Origin: Haliclystus octoradiatus
Lineage: Eukaryota > Cnidaria > Staurozoa > Stauromedusae > Haliclystidae
DNA length: 64,000 bases
NCBI GenBank assembly: GCA_916610825.1
Contig: OU744451.1
Span: 23,510,349-23,574,348 of the forward strand
Direction: 5' to 3'
Both the position numbers and the translations under genes were made by a program. Below the pieces are notes generated by a model, which saw only the letters and a list, made by a program, of their open reading frames with translations, was not told where the DNA came from and did no database searches. Positions 14,015 through 64,000 of this stretch are shown in pieces. Position 1 is the first letter of the stretch. Every line of letters begins with the position of its first letter.

Positions 14015-17000
14015 TTATTCACACTCATCACTGATTTGTCGATCTAACATAGCGACAATAGTAGATTCATCTTCTGATGGTGTATCCGTATCGTCACCAC
14101 TTGATTCAGTACTGCTACTGCTACTACTATTAGAACTAGAATCAATTTCAATAACATTACGTTCTAAATCGTCTGATAATAATGATTTCTTTGATTGTGG
14201 TTTCTGATCTGAACCTAATTCATTATCATGTTTCCGTTTGCGGCGGATATGTTTCATTTGAGGTAATGGCACTTCTTGACTATCACTTGATTCTGATACA
14301 CTGCCCAATAAATTGCCTTCTTCGTCATCAGCATCGCAATTCTCATCACTTCCTTCGTCACTCTGCATAAAATCTTCAACTTCTTTGTCCATTTCGTCTA
14401 ATTCAGCTTTTGAGAAATTCGTCAAAGGATTCAAAACCGACATTATATCTTCATCAGTAGGGGCATTTGTTAACGGCGAAATAGATAATGACTTTTGATC
14501 CACATTTTCTTGACCTAAACGTTGCGGAGTACCTCTTCTTGATGGTGGTGGTGTTTCTGTATATTCCTGTCCACGGTCAGGCACAGGAAACAACTCTTCG
14601 TTAACCCATTCCCACCGTTCGTAACAGCACCATAACCAATCAGGATTTACCAACTTGATACCTTCACATTTTTCAGCAATGTAAGCTTTTTCTGTACCTC
14701 GACGAGCGGCAACAACATGCGTTGTACGTTCATTCAGATTATCTTTACCTGGCAAAGTTATTTCCTTTGTCACTCTTGCGCCCAGAGCTACAGCAATTTT
14801 AAATGCTGAGCTACGTTCAATTGGCACATGAACAGGTATTACGCCAGTAAAAACAATTGATACACCGTTTAGAGTTTGAAATCTTAGTTGTGGAACAACA
14901 CAGCGCACGTCAGGGTTCATTGTTGCTTGTGTACAATATCGAATAATATCATGATCACTGCGAGCTGTTCCACCCTTTTCTTTTATGGCGTCAAGTGTTG
15001 AATAGAATGTCATGTGGATTCTTTGTAGAATATCTTCCAAATAGAACAAATGGTCATCAAGATCAATAGGATCACGATATGAATCTAAACCAACAAAAAT
15101 AGATAACTTTAAACACATTACAGTGAAACCTGTATATAACGGCCAGCTACGAGAGGCAGATAAACTGACCATTATAGACAGGTGGGCTTTATATACAGGT
15201 TTTGTTCAATAGAGAATATTATTTTAGACATTACAAGAGTGACCACTATAGACAGGTGGCCACTGTATAGAGGTGACCGTTATAGCAGGTTTGGCTATAG
15301 TGATTTTATATTGAATTTACTTTTTACGTCATTGTATAATTGTCTATTGTTATTCATTTCCTGTAAATCTATGTGTGTGTAAACTGTACCACATAAACGT
15401 CCTCTTTTACGTCTTGTTGTTATACTGTCGTGTCTATTGTATAAAGAGCTCATATTTAATCTAACAATGATAATGATGATGATTACTAATCATTTTACAA
15501 TACCTTCATGTTGATGATCCGTATTCACTGCTTTCTCAGATACAGAATTATCAATTGGTACATCAACATCAATGTTTTTTTCCGCAGCATTACTATCATC
15601 AGTATTTTGTATTTCTTTACCGTTTTCTTTGGGTTTACTCCCCCTCCCCTCGGAAATAGAATCTTCAATAGAAGTATCACCATTTACATTCTTATCAGAA
15701 ACACTTTCTAGATTTTCTTTGCTTTCAACCGTTTCTTTTTCAAAATTTTTCTCTGGATAATCTGTTGTCGAATTTCCATCTGAGTTTTCGGTTCCTGTAT
15801 TTTCATCTGGTATTTCTGTTTTTAAATCTGCGTCTGCATTTTCTGGTTTTTCATCTGACTTTGCTTCTACGCTATTTTTGTCAGTATTTTCATCAAGAGT
15901 TTTTTCATCTGAAGCAGGTTTACCAAATGGTGGATTTTTAACTTTAGCTTGATTTAGTAATGGAGCACCTGGAGTATTGATATCTCCAATACCAGTAAAA
16001 AATCGATATGGTTTAACAGCAACTAAATTCGGAGCAGAATGCCAAACATCTTCTCTATCATCTATGATACAAACCATATGATCTCCGCATGGAAATAGAG
16101 CTCTGCAAAAATGGAAAAGATAAAATATTGAGAATACTTTAATACAACAGAAATACAATCAAACCTGATATGGTAACTGTCTTTATACTATTACTTGCTC
16201 AAACCGTAGAGCAACGATTCGAATCCCTCAGTCAAGTCACCTTTGATGTTATCTAGACTATATTAAAGCATGCATATAACAGCCAGCTATGAAAGGTAGA
16301 TAAATTGACCACTATTTGGAGGTGATCTTTACATACATGGTTGATTCAATGGAAAATACTATTTCACACATACTAAAAGTGCCCAATATATGCAGGTGAC
16401 CGCTATATAGAGGTGACCGTTATAACCGTTTTGACTGTATTTGATTGATTGTAAATCTACAATGTCATACATGGTTGATGTTTCATTCAAACGAACACTA
16501 ACTAACCTCAAATCTTGTGATTTTGTAAACGGATTAAAGCATTCATCTCTTGATCGTATTCTGTGTGCAAATAGCTTCTGACTTGGATCCAAGAACTTAA
16601 CTATTGTATGAGCATACATACGAGATCCCATTGTAAAGACATGAAGTTCAAATAATTTTGAAACAGTTTCGAGAAATTGTTTAGCACCAGGACGGAATTT
16701 TGTGTGATAATAAAGATCTTTTCCTGGCAATTGAAAATGATACATATCCTATAAATAGAAACACAATACATGGGTTAGGGGGTGGAGGTTAACATGAAGT
16801 GGGCCAGCCTGACAAGGTGGCGTGACACCTTTGAATTGTTGCGCACTGACAATCGAGGCCCGTCTGCCATGGAATCTGTTGAAATTGATCTGCGGTGTCG
16901 CTGCTGAGGTCAGTCAGTAAAGAGTGTTTACAATCACTGCTCTAAACGAAAAGAGAAGCTCCTCTAGAAATGGAAGAGTGGTACGGGCGCCTTCAGGAGG

Positions 17001-58500: not shown

Positions 58501-61060
58501 TTACATAATATTTGTTGATAAGAATTATTGGTTAAAAGTTAAAACTGGTTATGGAATTGAATCGATTGGATATTTAACAATCATTAAGGTAATACAAAAT
58601 AGTGGTGGGCCGTTTATGGATTTTTAAAACCGATTAACCAATAATGATAACTGGTTAATTTTCGATTAATTGAACACAAACAACAGAACAATAAAGTAAC
58701 AATAGACTTGGCAATAGATAATGTTTAGCAACAATAGGGAATGGCAATAATTATCCTCTCGCATGTGATGAATGAGACAGCTTGTATTGTATTAAGTTGA
58801 AAAGGTTAACAAATCATTATTTTGTTGATAACCAGTTGATTAATTCATAATCGGTTAAAGGGGCAAAATTGACCGGCGACCGCTGCGAGCACAAGTAGAA
58901 TTTATGCTTAGCGTAATTCAACCGTCTCGCTTTGAAACAATTGTTATATGCAGGCCTAACTTGTAATAAAATTCATGTCAACAATGAACATTGTGTTATA
59001 ACAATAAGCGTGCACGTGATCCTAAGTGCGTAGCGCCTGCCGGTCATTTTTGCTCCTTTAACCGGTCCACCTCTAATTCAAAAAAATAAAACAATATAAA
59101 ATAAAAAGAATGTAGCAAAAATATTAAATTTAATCAATGATGCTGGTTTGGCATGTGTTTCTTCTCTGTTAACGGACTTATCATTGACAATTTATTTTAA
59201 TGTTTTAATTTCAGGGGATAATAACAATAACACATGCCCCTCATTATGTCTTTTCTATAAAGTCAATAACATATGCTACACCAATACTACATCAATAAAA
59301 CATGTAGCATGTCAGTATGGTAGTTCAAATACAGAAGATGATGACCAAGTAAGTCAAAGCTATGAACTTGGTTTCAAAATTTCAAATGGTACTAAACAAT
59401 GGCTTTGTAAATTTTACGATGCTCGATTAATTGCTGGAGATGATCATTTAAAAGTTGTAATGGCTAATGAGACATGGCTTTCGGAATTATTACAAAATCA
59501 AAATACAACCGAGGGATGCTCGTTAATATTATTCTTTGTACAATGGTGTAAATTCTGTTCAGAAATTGCTGCAGATTACAACTCGTTAGCAAGATCTTAT
59601 CCTGGTATGCCTGTTATTGCTGTCGATGCTAATTTGTATCCAAGGTATGAGATATGTTGTTGGAAAATATTTTTCTGTTATTTTCCCCCAAATTCCCCTA
59701 TTCCCAATTGTTAGTTTACAATTTTTGGTAAAATAATAAAATGATTAAATAAATTTCATAGTGTAAAATAAATTGATTGTGACGATCTTGGTTTTAACAA
59801 GTAAAATGATTAGTTTCGTAAATGAAAATAATGGTTTCATAAAACAAAATTAAGGTAGACAATGCTTCTCAATCCCCAAAAATTATTCTATAGTCTACAG
59901 TTTATGTCAAACACGCAGGCCAAGATACAAAACCTCGTACAGTGAAGCTTGTATATATATGCCAGCTACGAGAGGTAGATAATTTGACCACTATAGACAG
60001 TTGGCCTTTATATACAGGTTTGATTCAATAGAAAATATTATTTTAGACATTGCAAGAGTGACCACTATAGACACTTAGACAGGTGGCCTCTCTATAGAGG
60101 TGACCGTTATAACAGGTTTGACTGTAGCAGAAAATAATAATAGCAGCATGGAGTATTCCAGAAGACTTTCTGTAGGCCTACTATTCTTCACTATTGAGTA
60201 TAAACAATGTGTGAATGGGGCAACACTGCAACAACTTTGTGCCTAAAAAGACTAAAAGTATAACAAAGGGTATTACAGACAGAAAAGCTCAAGTTTAAAT
60301 ATTCATATAGAAAAATAGATTTGCTTGAACTTAATAAAAACTACATCACAATTCTAAGTACAGGAACATTCATGCAACACAGGGTGTTTTCTTCATAAAT
60401 CGCGCAGGAGAAACTATCTGTTGAGATCTTTGAAAATCTCCTTATACTAAATTTTGACTCTGTGTGCAGCAGATCTTGGCTTGGGTCGCCCCTGCTTCCC
60501 TGAATTCGGCGCGTAGCACTGAATACACACTAGACCGCCAGCTATGAAATGCAGATAAAGTGACCGCTATATAGAAGGAACTCAAAGGTTGATTCAATAG
60601 AAATTATGAACCTACGAACATGAACATTGATTGTGCCTGTTTTTCATGGTCATTATCATGAACTGTTTTCACAGAGGTATGAATGATATAATATGGTTCC
60701 ATTTTTTTTTATAGCATTGCTACAAAATATGGTGTTGTCGGTGTTCCAACCGTTTTACTCTTCTATGGTGGCAGACCTGTTATGAGGCTTAACCGCTCTC
60801 ATCCAACTTTAGAACATTTTGAAAAGTTCATACAGTACCATGCTGGATTTGTAGCTGAAACTAAGCTAGTTGTCGAGGATGGAGATTATATTGGTCCTTT
60901 ACCAACAAAAGTTACTGAACCAACAGACATATATTTATATTTATCAACTTTATTCGTCTTTGTTTCTTGTACTATTTATATTTTAAGTTTTCCAGTTTGT
61001 TTTACATTACTTGAACGGCTGAAAAATGTTTTAAGAGTTAGATTGTTAAATCGTAACTAA
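55527..61060 (+). CDS. TXNDC15: Thioredoxin-domain membrane protein, TXNDC15-like
   Basis: Three exons: 55527-55602, 59215-59644 and 60715-61060, phases 1 and 2, 283 aa. Exon 1 is a signal peptide (hydrophobic residues about 9-25). The lumenal part has an early cysteine pair and NxT/NxS glycosylation sites (N31, N49, N110, N122). Thioredoxin-like domain about 95-215 with active-site segment WCKFC at 136-140 and the cis-proline loop VGVPT (178-181). One membrane helix about 241-265, then a basic tail. TXNDC15 is a ciliary transition-zone/ER-linked protein involved in hedgehog signalling in vertebrates. The C-terminal order (IGPLP, then membrane helix) matches TXNDC15. As I recall, human has CRFS where this protein has CKFC. 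Intron 1 (3.6 kb) holds several hAT-like elements. The coding 3' end is the source of the satellite that follows. Confidence 0.88.
56000..56427. mobile_element. 428 bp hAT-like element with CCAGACTGGAAT ends
   Basis: Inverted ends CCAGACTGGAATTCTTGTA and (complement) CCAGACTGGAATCCTTGTA; perfect 8 bp duplication GCGGAATG (55992-55999, 56428-56435). Interior has GCGCGG words. No transposase. Intron 1 of TXNDC15. Confidence 0.92.
56528..56790. mobile_element. hAT-like MITE, copy of 28556-28817
   Basis: Same interior (AAGATCTTGGCCGCG, TTTGGCTTTCAGCCG, GCATTCTTTCCAATCTGG). Left end decayed to CCAGGTGGGAAAG. Confidence 0.8.
57494..57690. mobile_element. TTCATGAAC palindromic MITE, best-preserved copy
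   Basis: At least twelve GTTCATGAAC/GTTCATGGAC words arranged in both orientations around two inverted cores CGTTAAATGGCTCC and GGGGCCATTTAACG. Confidence 0.75.
58070..58192. repeat. GGATCC-family MITE fragment
   Basis: Right half only: TTCTTCTGAATTTGCTCTAG, GGGATCTAGGATCCCAGGAT, CCCCTTGTTGGCGGACCC. Confidence 0.6.
58600..59075. mobile_element. hAT-like MITE with TAGTGGTGGGCCG ends, split by a TTAA element
   Basis: Left TAGTGGTGGGCCG, right complement TAGAGGTGGACCGG. Flanks ATACAAAA (58592-58599) and ATTCAAAA (59076-59083) agree at 7 of 8. CCGATTAACC/GGTTAATT words inside. The 199 bp element 58859-59057 is nested near its right end. Confidence 0.75.
58859..59057 (+). mobile_element. 199 bp TTAA-inserted MITE, copy 2
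   Basis: Flanked by TTAA at 58855-58858 and 59058-59061. AGGGGCAAAATTGACCGGCG to CCGGTCATTTTTGCTCCT. Opposite orientation to 9090-9288, same length. Confidence 0.9.
59940..60124 (+). mobile_element. Pogo-like MITE copy 16
   Basis: CAGTGAAGCTTGTATATATA to TTTGACTG, TA flanks; small internal duplication (GACACTTAGACAG). TXNDC15 intron 2. Confidence 0.85.
60524..60615 (+). mobile_element. Pogo-like MITE fragment
   Basis: CCGCCAGCTATGAAATGCAG, GTGACCGCTATATAGAAG and GGTTGATTCAATAGAAA only. TXNDC15 intron 2. An even shorter tip (CAGTGAAACCTGTTC) lies at 18870. Confidence 0.55.
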
Positions 61061-64000
61061 GGCATTGTTTAAAAAGTTTAGATAATTTATTGAAGCATAC
61101 ACTTCTACAAACATTTTATTATTATTATATCTAGTCATAAAGTGGATACAAATTATTCTACTGCGATATGATGAACAAAGTTATTTGATATATTTATATT
61201 TTAAGTTTTCCTCTTTGTTTTACTTTACTTGAACGGTTGAAGAATGTTTTAAGTTAGATTGTTAAATCGTAACTAAGGCATTGTTTAGATAATTTATTGA
61301 AGCATACACTTCTACAAACATTTTATTATTATTATATCTAGTCATAAAGTGGATACAAATTATTCTACTGCGATATGATGAACAAAGTTATTTGATATAT
61401 TTATATTTTAAGTTTTCCACTTTGTTTTACTTTACTTGAACGGCTGAAAAATGTTTTAAGAGTTAGATTGTTAAATCGTAACTAAGGCATTGTTTAGATA
61501 ATTTATTGAAGCATACACTTCTACAAACATTTTATTATCATTATATCTAGTCATAAAGTGGATACAAATTATTCTACTGCGATATGATGAACAAAGTTAT
61601 TAGATATATTTATATTTTAAGTTTTCCAATTTGTTTCACTTTACTTGAACGGTTGAAAAATGTTTTAAGAGTTAGATTGTTAAACCGTAACTAAGGCATT
61701 GTTTAGATAATTTATTGAAGCATACACTTCTACAAACATTTTATTATTATTATATCTAGTCATAAAATGGATACAAATTATTCTACTGCGATATGATGAA
61801 CAAAGTTATTTGATATATTTATATTTTAAGTTTTCCACTTTGTTTTACTTTACTTGAACGGCTGAAAAATGTTTTAAGAGTTAGATTGTTAAATCGTAAC
61901 TAAGGCATTGTTTAGATAATTTATTGAAGCATACACTTCTACAAACATTTTATTATTATTATATCTAGTCATAAAGTGGATACAAATTATTCTACTGCGA
62001 TATGATGAACAAAGTTATTAGATATATTTATATTTTAAGTTTTCCAATTTGTTTCACTTTACTTGAACGGTTGAAAAATGTTTTAAGAGTTAGATTGTTA
62101 AATCGTAACTAAGGCATTGTTTAAAAAGTTTATTGAAGCATACACTTCTACAAACATTTTATTATTATTATATCTAGTCATAAAGTGGATACAAATTATT
62201 CTACTGCGATATGATGAACAAAGTTATTAGATATATTTATATTTTAAGTTTTCCAGTTTGTTATACTTACTTTAAAGGCTGAAAAAAGTTTTAAGAGTTA
62301 GATTGTTAAATCGTAACTAAGGCATTGTTTAAAAAGTTTATTGAAGCATACACTTCTACAAACATTTTATTATTATTATATCTAGTCATAAAGTGGATAC
62401 AAATTATTCTACTGCGATATGATGAACAAAGTTATTTGATATATTTATATTTTAAGTTATCCAATTTGTTTTACTTTACTTGAACGGCTGAAAAATGTTT
62501 TAAGAGTTAGATTGTTAAATCGTAACTAAGGCATTGTTTAAAAAGTTTAGATAATTTATTGAAGCATACACTTCTACAAACATTTTATTATTATTATATC
62601 TAGTCATAAAGTGGATACAAATTATTCTACTGCGATATGATGAACAAAGTTATTAGATATATTTATATTTTAAGTTTTCCAGTTTGTTATACTTACTTTA
62701 AAGGCTGAAAAAAGTTTTAAGAGTTAGATTTTTAAATCGTAACTAAGGCATTGTTTAGATAATTTATTGAAGCATACACTTCTACAAACATTTGATTATT
62801 ATTATATCTAGTCATAAAGTGGATACAAATTATTCTACTGCGATATGATGAACAAAGTTATTAGATATATTTATATTTTAAGTTTTCCAGTTTGTTATAC
62901 TTACTTTAAAGGCTGAAAAAAGTTTTAAGAGTTAGATTGTTAAATCGTAACTAAGGCATTGTTTAGATAATTTATTGAAGCATACACTTCTACAAACATT
63001 TTATTATTATTATATCTAGTCATAAAGTGGATACAAATTATTTTACTGCGATATGATGAACAAAGTTATTTGATATATTTATATTTTAAGTTTTCCTCTT
63101 TGTTTTACTTTACTTGAACGGTTGAAGAATGTTTTAAGTTAGATTGTTAAATCGTAACTAAGGCATTGTTTAGATAATTTATTGAAGCATACACTTCTAC
63201 AAACATTTTATTATTATTATATCTAGTCATAAAGTGGATACAAATTATTCTACTGCGATATGATGAACAAAGTTATTTGATATATTTATATTTTAAGTTT
63301 TCCACTTTGTTTTACTTTACTTGAACGGCTGAAAAATGTTTTAAGAGTTAGATTGTTAAATCGTAACTAAGGCATTGTTTAGATAATTTATTGAAGCATA
63401 CACTTCTACAAACATTTTATTATCATTATATCTAGTCATAAAGTGGATACAAATTATTCTACTGCGATATGATGAACAAAGTTATTAGATATATTTATAT
63501 TTTAAGTTTTCCAATTTGTTTCACTTTACTTGAACGGTTGAAAAATGTTTTAAGAGTTAGATTGTTAAACCGTAACTAAGGCATTGTTTAGATAATTTAT
63601 TGAAGCATACACTTCTACAAACATTTTATTATTATTATATCTAGTCATAAAATGGATACAAATTATTCTACTGCGATATGATGAACAAAGTTATTTGATA
63701 TATTTATATTTTAAGTTTTCCAGTTTGTTATACTTACTTTAAAGGCTGAAAAAAGTTTTAAGAGTTAGATTGTTAAATCGTAACTAAGGCATTGTTTAAA
63801 AAGTTTATTGAAGCATACACTTCTACAAACATTTTATTATTATTATATCTAGTCATAAAGTGGATACAAATTATTCTACTGCGATATGATGAACAAAGTT
63901 ATTTGATATATTTATATTTTAAGTTTTCCAATTTGTTTTACTTTACTTGAACGGCTGAAAAATGTTTTAAGAGTTAGATTGTTAAATCGTAACTAAGGCA
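60973..64000 (+). repeat. ~209 bp tandem satellite derived from the TXNDC15 3' end
   Basis: The anchor TAACTAAGGC (holding the TXNDC15 stop) recurs at 61054, 61270, 61479, 61689, 61897, 62106, 62314, 62523, 62740, 62948, 63155, 63364, 63573, 63781 and 63990: spacing 207-217, mostly 208-209. Each unit carries the last ~85 coding bases (from ATTTATATTTTAAGTTTTCC to the stop) plus ~125 bp of 3' flank. The array continues past the window. No AATAAA is seen in the unit. Confidence 0.97.

Follow-up and report, generated by a model that had tools for sequence, protein, structure and literature searches.

Variable-number tandem repeats (VNTRs) are known from the 3' untranslated regions and 3' flanks of genes, the VNTR in the 3' UTR of SLC6A3 being one example. 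To judge by its title, a 2009 study by Macas reportedly deals with satellites derived from the 3' UTRs of plant LTR retrotransposons. The array described here lies at the 3' end of a TXNDC15-like gene of the staurozoan Haliclystus octoradiatus. It resembles the VNTRs in occupying a single locus at a gene's 3' end and in belonging to the type of array that unequal exchange alters, but its unit is longer and holds coding bases and a stop codon. With the plant satellites it shares, as far as a title can tell, the birth of tandem repeats from a 3' untranslated region, although the source here would be a host gene and not a retrotransposon. In the part of the literature on nascent satellite DNA represented by PMC5615363, arrays amplify locally and variants spread through unequal crossing-over, and the origins named there include rDNA spacers and transposable elements. 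The present array shares these features, but it is small, no spread to other loci was found, and its seed is likely to be the end of a protein-coding gene. Among the papers listed on satellites born from gene ends and on VNTRs at gene ends, titles and the opening parts of abstracts yielded no matching case, which is no proof of absence in print. Our reading, to which we assign a probability of about 0.85, is that the 3' end of the TXNDC15-like gene seeded a single-locus tandem array, which grew by unequal exchange.

The gene and the array

The window is the whole stretch of 64,000 nucleotides that was analysed. The array runs past its right-hand edge, and positions beyond that edge are given as window equivalents or within the stretches L009 and L010. 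The features are as follows.

59100-59644, plus strand: penultimate exon of the TXNDC15-like gene, an open frame with a thioredoxin match and a CKFC motif (59100 is the start of the frame; the 5' limit of the exon may differ).
60715-61060, plus strand: coding part of the last exon, with the stop codon TAA at 61058-61060 (GT at 59645, AG at 60713-60714).
60973-61190, plus strand: unit 1, the gene copy, in the long, likely ancestral form (218 bp; last 28 codons, stop and 3' flank).
61191-61815, plus strand: units 2-4 (types d, a, b), from the unit alignment.
61816-62233, plus strand: units 5-6 (a, b), missing in the second block copy; unit 6 joins a b head to a tail resembling that of unit 7.
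62234-63075, plus strand: units 7-10 (c, e, c, c), from the unit alignment.
63076-63700, plus strand: units 11-13, equal to units 2-4 (0 mismatches in 625 bp).
63701-64000, plus strand: units 14-15 as far as the window edge; together with units 16-17 outside it they differ from units 7-10 by a single mismatch in 842 bp.
Beyond the window: units 18-20, followed by the end of the array at the 65170-equivalent (L009:5170), from the unit alignment and TRF.

The frame joined from 59100-59644 and 60715-61060 is open down to the stop codon. Its upstream exon matches the Pfam thioredoxin family PF00085 (E=5.1e-5; 23.7 bits, the cut-off being 23.5), and the last exon alone gave no Pfam match. A PDB search returned 186 distinct sequences at E<=0.001, with TXNDC5 the best (5.7e-23), and in the best 60 of the 186 the matched stretches correspond to the thioredoxin part. 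In a two-sequence comparison, the two-exon product was identical to part of a provisional human TXNDC15 sequence at 50 of 131 positions (38%, E=2e-35). The gene is presumably TXNDC15 and not another thioredoxin-fold membrane protein, an assignment that rests on this provisional sequence. When the assembly was searched with the protein, 15 of the 16 matches fell at the array locus, on the two exons and on 13 units of the array; the sixteenth, a weak match on contig C5 (38% over 69 residues, E=2.9e-6), is probably another thioredoxin-fold gene. TXNDC15 (TMX5) is described as having a luminal thioredoxin domain, a single transmembrane helix close to the C-terminus and a short cytosolic tail (PMC11443168). 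The predicted protein fits this layout, with its thioredoxin match just over the cut-off, a hydrophobic stretch and a basic tail. By hydropathy only, unit 1 starts inside the hydrophobic stretch and provides its second part together with the basic tail. The CKFC motif (within 59100-59644) stands where the human protein has CRFS (PMC11443168); this difference may mean that the protein is redox-active in the cnidarian and that the human trapping site arose by a later loss.

In the window, TRF reports the array (60973-64000) with period 209, 14.4 copies, 95% matches and a score of 5390; among the 23 TRF rows the runner-up scores 109. With the flank included, it runs head to tail from 60973 to the 65170-equivalent (L009 973-5170), over 4,198 bp and 20.0 copies, again at 95% matches. 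The region holds no N bases, and the copy number of 20 comes from one assembly, for which an alternate haplotype, GCA_916610655.1, is also on record. Once cut and aligned, the 20 units measured 207-218 bp (unit 20, 210 bp as cut, takes in one flanking T common to the join) and comprised 14 distinct sequences. Six pairs are identical (2/11, 3/12, 4/13, 7/14, 9/16 and 10/17), and the remaining pairs lie 1-13 changes apart, a run of gaps being counted as one change. An earlier sequence-only reading had proposed a tandem array of fifteen units of about 209 bp, the first being the gene itself. The array is real, and there are indeed fifteen units in the window, the last cut by its edge at 64000, before the array goes on to its full length. 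Unit 1 comprises the final 28 codons of the TXNDC15-like gene with its stop codon, followed by some 130 bp of flank. The variant types and their order as first read (gene, d-a-b-a-b-c-e-c-c-d-a-b-c-e) agree with the 20-unit alignment. Within the types, the TAAACC variant was found in b units 4 and 13 and was absent from b units 6 and 19, and a private change, AAGTTATCC, occurs in unit 8 and not in unit 15.

Several other features were seen in the neighbourhood and the assembly. At L009:6650-6885 (limits by eye), about 1.5 kb beyond the array end, lies a long fold-back inverted repeat made of AGTTTCACGCCAAGGCGATCATCAGG and its near reverse complement, MITE-like by eye. A motif of the GACCACTATAGACAGGTGGCC type, probably a dispersed repeat, recurs, by eye and in TRF rows, at window positions 59930-60110 (in the TXNDC15 intron) and 15239-15290, at L009:6400-6560 and at L010:2540-2590. 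A plus-strand open frame at L010:4932-5444, some 10 kb beyond the array end, reads as a multi-pass membrane protein, PIEZO-like by eye only. Contig C33 carries a 517-aa COX1 frame with 8 internal TGA codons, which fits the cnidarian-type mitochondrial code.

Transcription and function

Beyond unit 1, the array most likely consists of neutral, non-coding sequence, either 3' UTR or 3' flank. Besides the gene exon, no listed frame inside the in-window array is longer than 57 aa, a length reached by two, and a coding array was rejected. A structured RNA was rejected as well: the folding of unit 1, the unit assayed, is ordinary (z -0.38; 70 of 200 shuffles fold at least as well), and L009 gave no Rfam match at gathering thresholds. 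On the minus strand, AATAAA occurs 38 times in the array, and a convergent gene using it was discarded, since no minus-strand coding exon was recognised downstream in the ORF lists, inspected by eye.

The plus strand of the 20-unit array carries CATAAA, which can act as a weak poly(A) hexamer, 20 times, and is free of AATAAA and ATTAAA from 60973 up to the 66344-equivalent, where the first plus-strand AATAAA is located. With signals so arranged, TXNDC15 transcripts could terminate in unit 1 or continue into the array. The same arrangement would suit an array maintained for function, its units serving the TXNDC15 transcript as repeats of a regulatory or 3'-processing region. So would the somewhat lower variability of the 3'-derived part of the unit, with 9 changes in 131 columns versus 14 in 88 columns of the coding-derived part (Fisher p=0.044). 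That comparison is post hoc and not robust. It is skewed on both sides, since linked type-c changes inflate one count and the second deletion creates an alignment artefact that inflates the other, and constraint on the 3'-derived part is suggestive only. Given also the ordinary folding of unit 1 and the lack of an Rfam match in L009, we regard maintenance for function as improbable. Also unlikely is a TXNDC15 transcript that would read through the array and carry a multi-kb 3' UTR, polymorphic in length, in which the gene end would stand in register in up to 20 copies; the units would act as repeated, competing 3'-processing sites, and the array would then be a satellite in its first rounds of growth.

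A single locus and its likely seed

With one unit as query (E<=10), all 20 matches found in the 262-Mb assembly (261,861,806 bases in 33 contigs, of which the array contig, C7, makes up 26,960,693) lie at the array locus. A 401-bp query at E<=0.001 likewise matched there only. In such whole-genome searches very common words are skipped, and the counts are lower bounds for repeats. As a control, 370 bp of another array (185-bp units, 5.7 copies, L017:5601-6649) matched 9 places on 6 contigs, its own place included; at 8 of these 9 the best match reached 98-100%. Searches of this kind can therefore detect dispersed arrays. The L017 array is perhaps carried inside a mobile element. It is the one other array of at least 500 bp that TRF reports from a comparison set of 274,800 bp, made up of 20 stretches of the array contig, the first 60 kb of the window and the near flanks, which is not a random sample of the genome. 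A dispersed satellite was rejected on the ground that every match found, in these lower-bound searches, lies at one locus. Import of type c from another locus was rejected too: a 32-base c-specific pattern, with as many as 3 mismatches allowed, occurs at 6 places, every one of them within the array, and its reversed control at none.

The sequence-only reading had called the array a satellite and had named abundance of the same satellite elsewhere as what would overturn its derivation from the gene. Within the limits of lower-bound searches, the assembly does not bear out such abundance. The word satellite holds for the head-to-tail tandem structure, but it is overstated for 20 units over 4.2 kb at one locus: satellites form long arrays, occupy many loci or make up a visible share of the genome, and here the searches, themselves lower bounds, found 4,198 bp at a single place.

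The edges of the array speak to its origin. The left edge reads C/TATTTATATT, the first internal join GATA/TATTTATATT and the right edge GATA/TGAACTT, all in one common phase. Every join between units falls in this phase, as do both array ends, and the first join shares 1 bp (microhomology of about 1 bp). Alignment columns 1-17 and 215-218, which flank the joins, are invariant in 20 of 20 units. The common phase of joins and ends is explained by one duplication followed by in-register unequal exchange. The long form GTTTAAAAAGTTTAGATAATTTATTG is present in unit 1 and in the e units 8 and 15, the commonest short form lacks AAAAAGTTT, and the form of units 6, 7 and 14 lacks GATAATTTA. Since each short form is one 9-bp deletion away from the long form, between short direct repeats, and three substitutions would be needed to pass from one short form to the other, unit 1 likely carries, by parsimony, the ancestral long state. 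The single locus, the long form in unit 1 and the coinciding end phases together make the gene end the likely seed, as first proposed. One unit is the gene, and both ends stand in the founding phase, which fits a gene-derived, single-locus (VNTR-like) array.

Conversely, a pre-existing array could have been joined to the gene by deletion or insertion, the last 28 codons then coming from the array. The alignment to the provisional human TXNDC15 sequence ends two residues inside unit 1, as a captured tail would give, although a fast-diverging cytosolic tail may lose similarity in the same way. Later joining predicts unrelated phases at the two ends, which would coincide by chance in about 3 of 209 cases by our own estimate. 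The confinement of unit matches to one locus in this assembly and the ancestral long form of unit 1 also tell against capture, as does the basic tail that the unit adds to the hydrophobic stretch it helps to encode, fitting a type I membrane protein. We therefore consider capture improbable, and seeding by the gene end remains the preferred reading.

Proposed growth of the array

Seeding would have begun with a tandem duplication of about 218 bp, reaching from within the transmembrane-helix codons to about 130 bp beyond the stop and joined through microhomology of about 1 bp. Unequal exchange of units in register would then have raised the copy number and spread variants, while the gene kept its coding end as unit 1. 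Dimers of a-b type, recognised by look at units 3-4, 5-6 and 18-19, would be among the older products. Unit 6, with its b head and its tail like unit 7, is what exchange between neighbours would give. Support in a FastTree tree of the units is mixed (0.10-0.99), and this reading does not draw on it.

The order of the array can be written 1 [2 3 4] 5 6 [7 8 9 10] [2 3 4] [7 8 9 10] 18 19 20. The two repeated blocks together show 1 mismatch in 1,467 bp, a divergence of about 0.07%. Unit types diverge by up to about 6%, so that the block event is recent in comparison with the array as a whole. The repetition exceeds chance: identical runs of at least 3 units recurred in 70 of 20,000 shuffles of the 20-unit order, and runs of at least 4 in 7 of 20,000 when units 8 and 15 were, by a post hoc choice, treated as alike. 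The recurrence of d-a-b with its private variants, noticed at the outset, is exact, and c-e recurs as the longer c-e-c-c, partly beyond the window. Block amplification is upheld, most simply by unequal exchange. What was termed higher-order holds in that blocks are far more alike than units, which differ by up to 13 changes, but the repetition is not regular: one block duplication over older a-b dimers, in two copies of which the second lacks units 5-6. In this recent step, units 2-10 would have been duplicated as a block, one copy being without units 5-6. A single unequal crossover between a 13-unit and an 11-unit allele, with and without units 5-6, would produce the present array at once; a duplication followed by loss or gain of two units is a possible alternative.

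An array of 4.2 kb should fit inside single HiFi reads, which counts against an artefact of assembly. That the blocks, only 1 bp apart in 1,467, arose by false duplication or by the joining of two haplotypes is very improbable, as the second is no plain repeat of the first and the assembly is reported to have 68-fold HiFi coverage and QV 56.6 (PMC9975415).

The mechanism is a textbook one, and the value of the locus lies in its being a clean and unusually legible worked example of the birth of an array. To our knowledge, tandem arrays are seldom found with the seed sequence identifiable and in place. Here the seed, the founding join, the intermediate forms and a recent block duplication can all be read within 4.2 kb, and comparison of the two haplotypes and of related Haliclystus could order and time these steps and test models of how arrays start.
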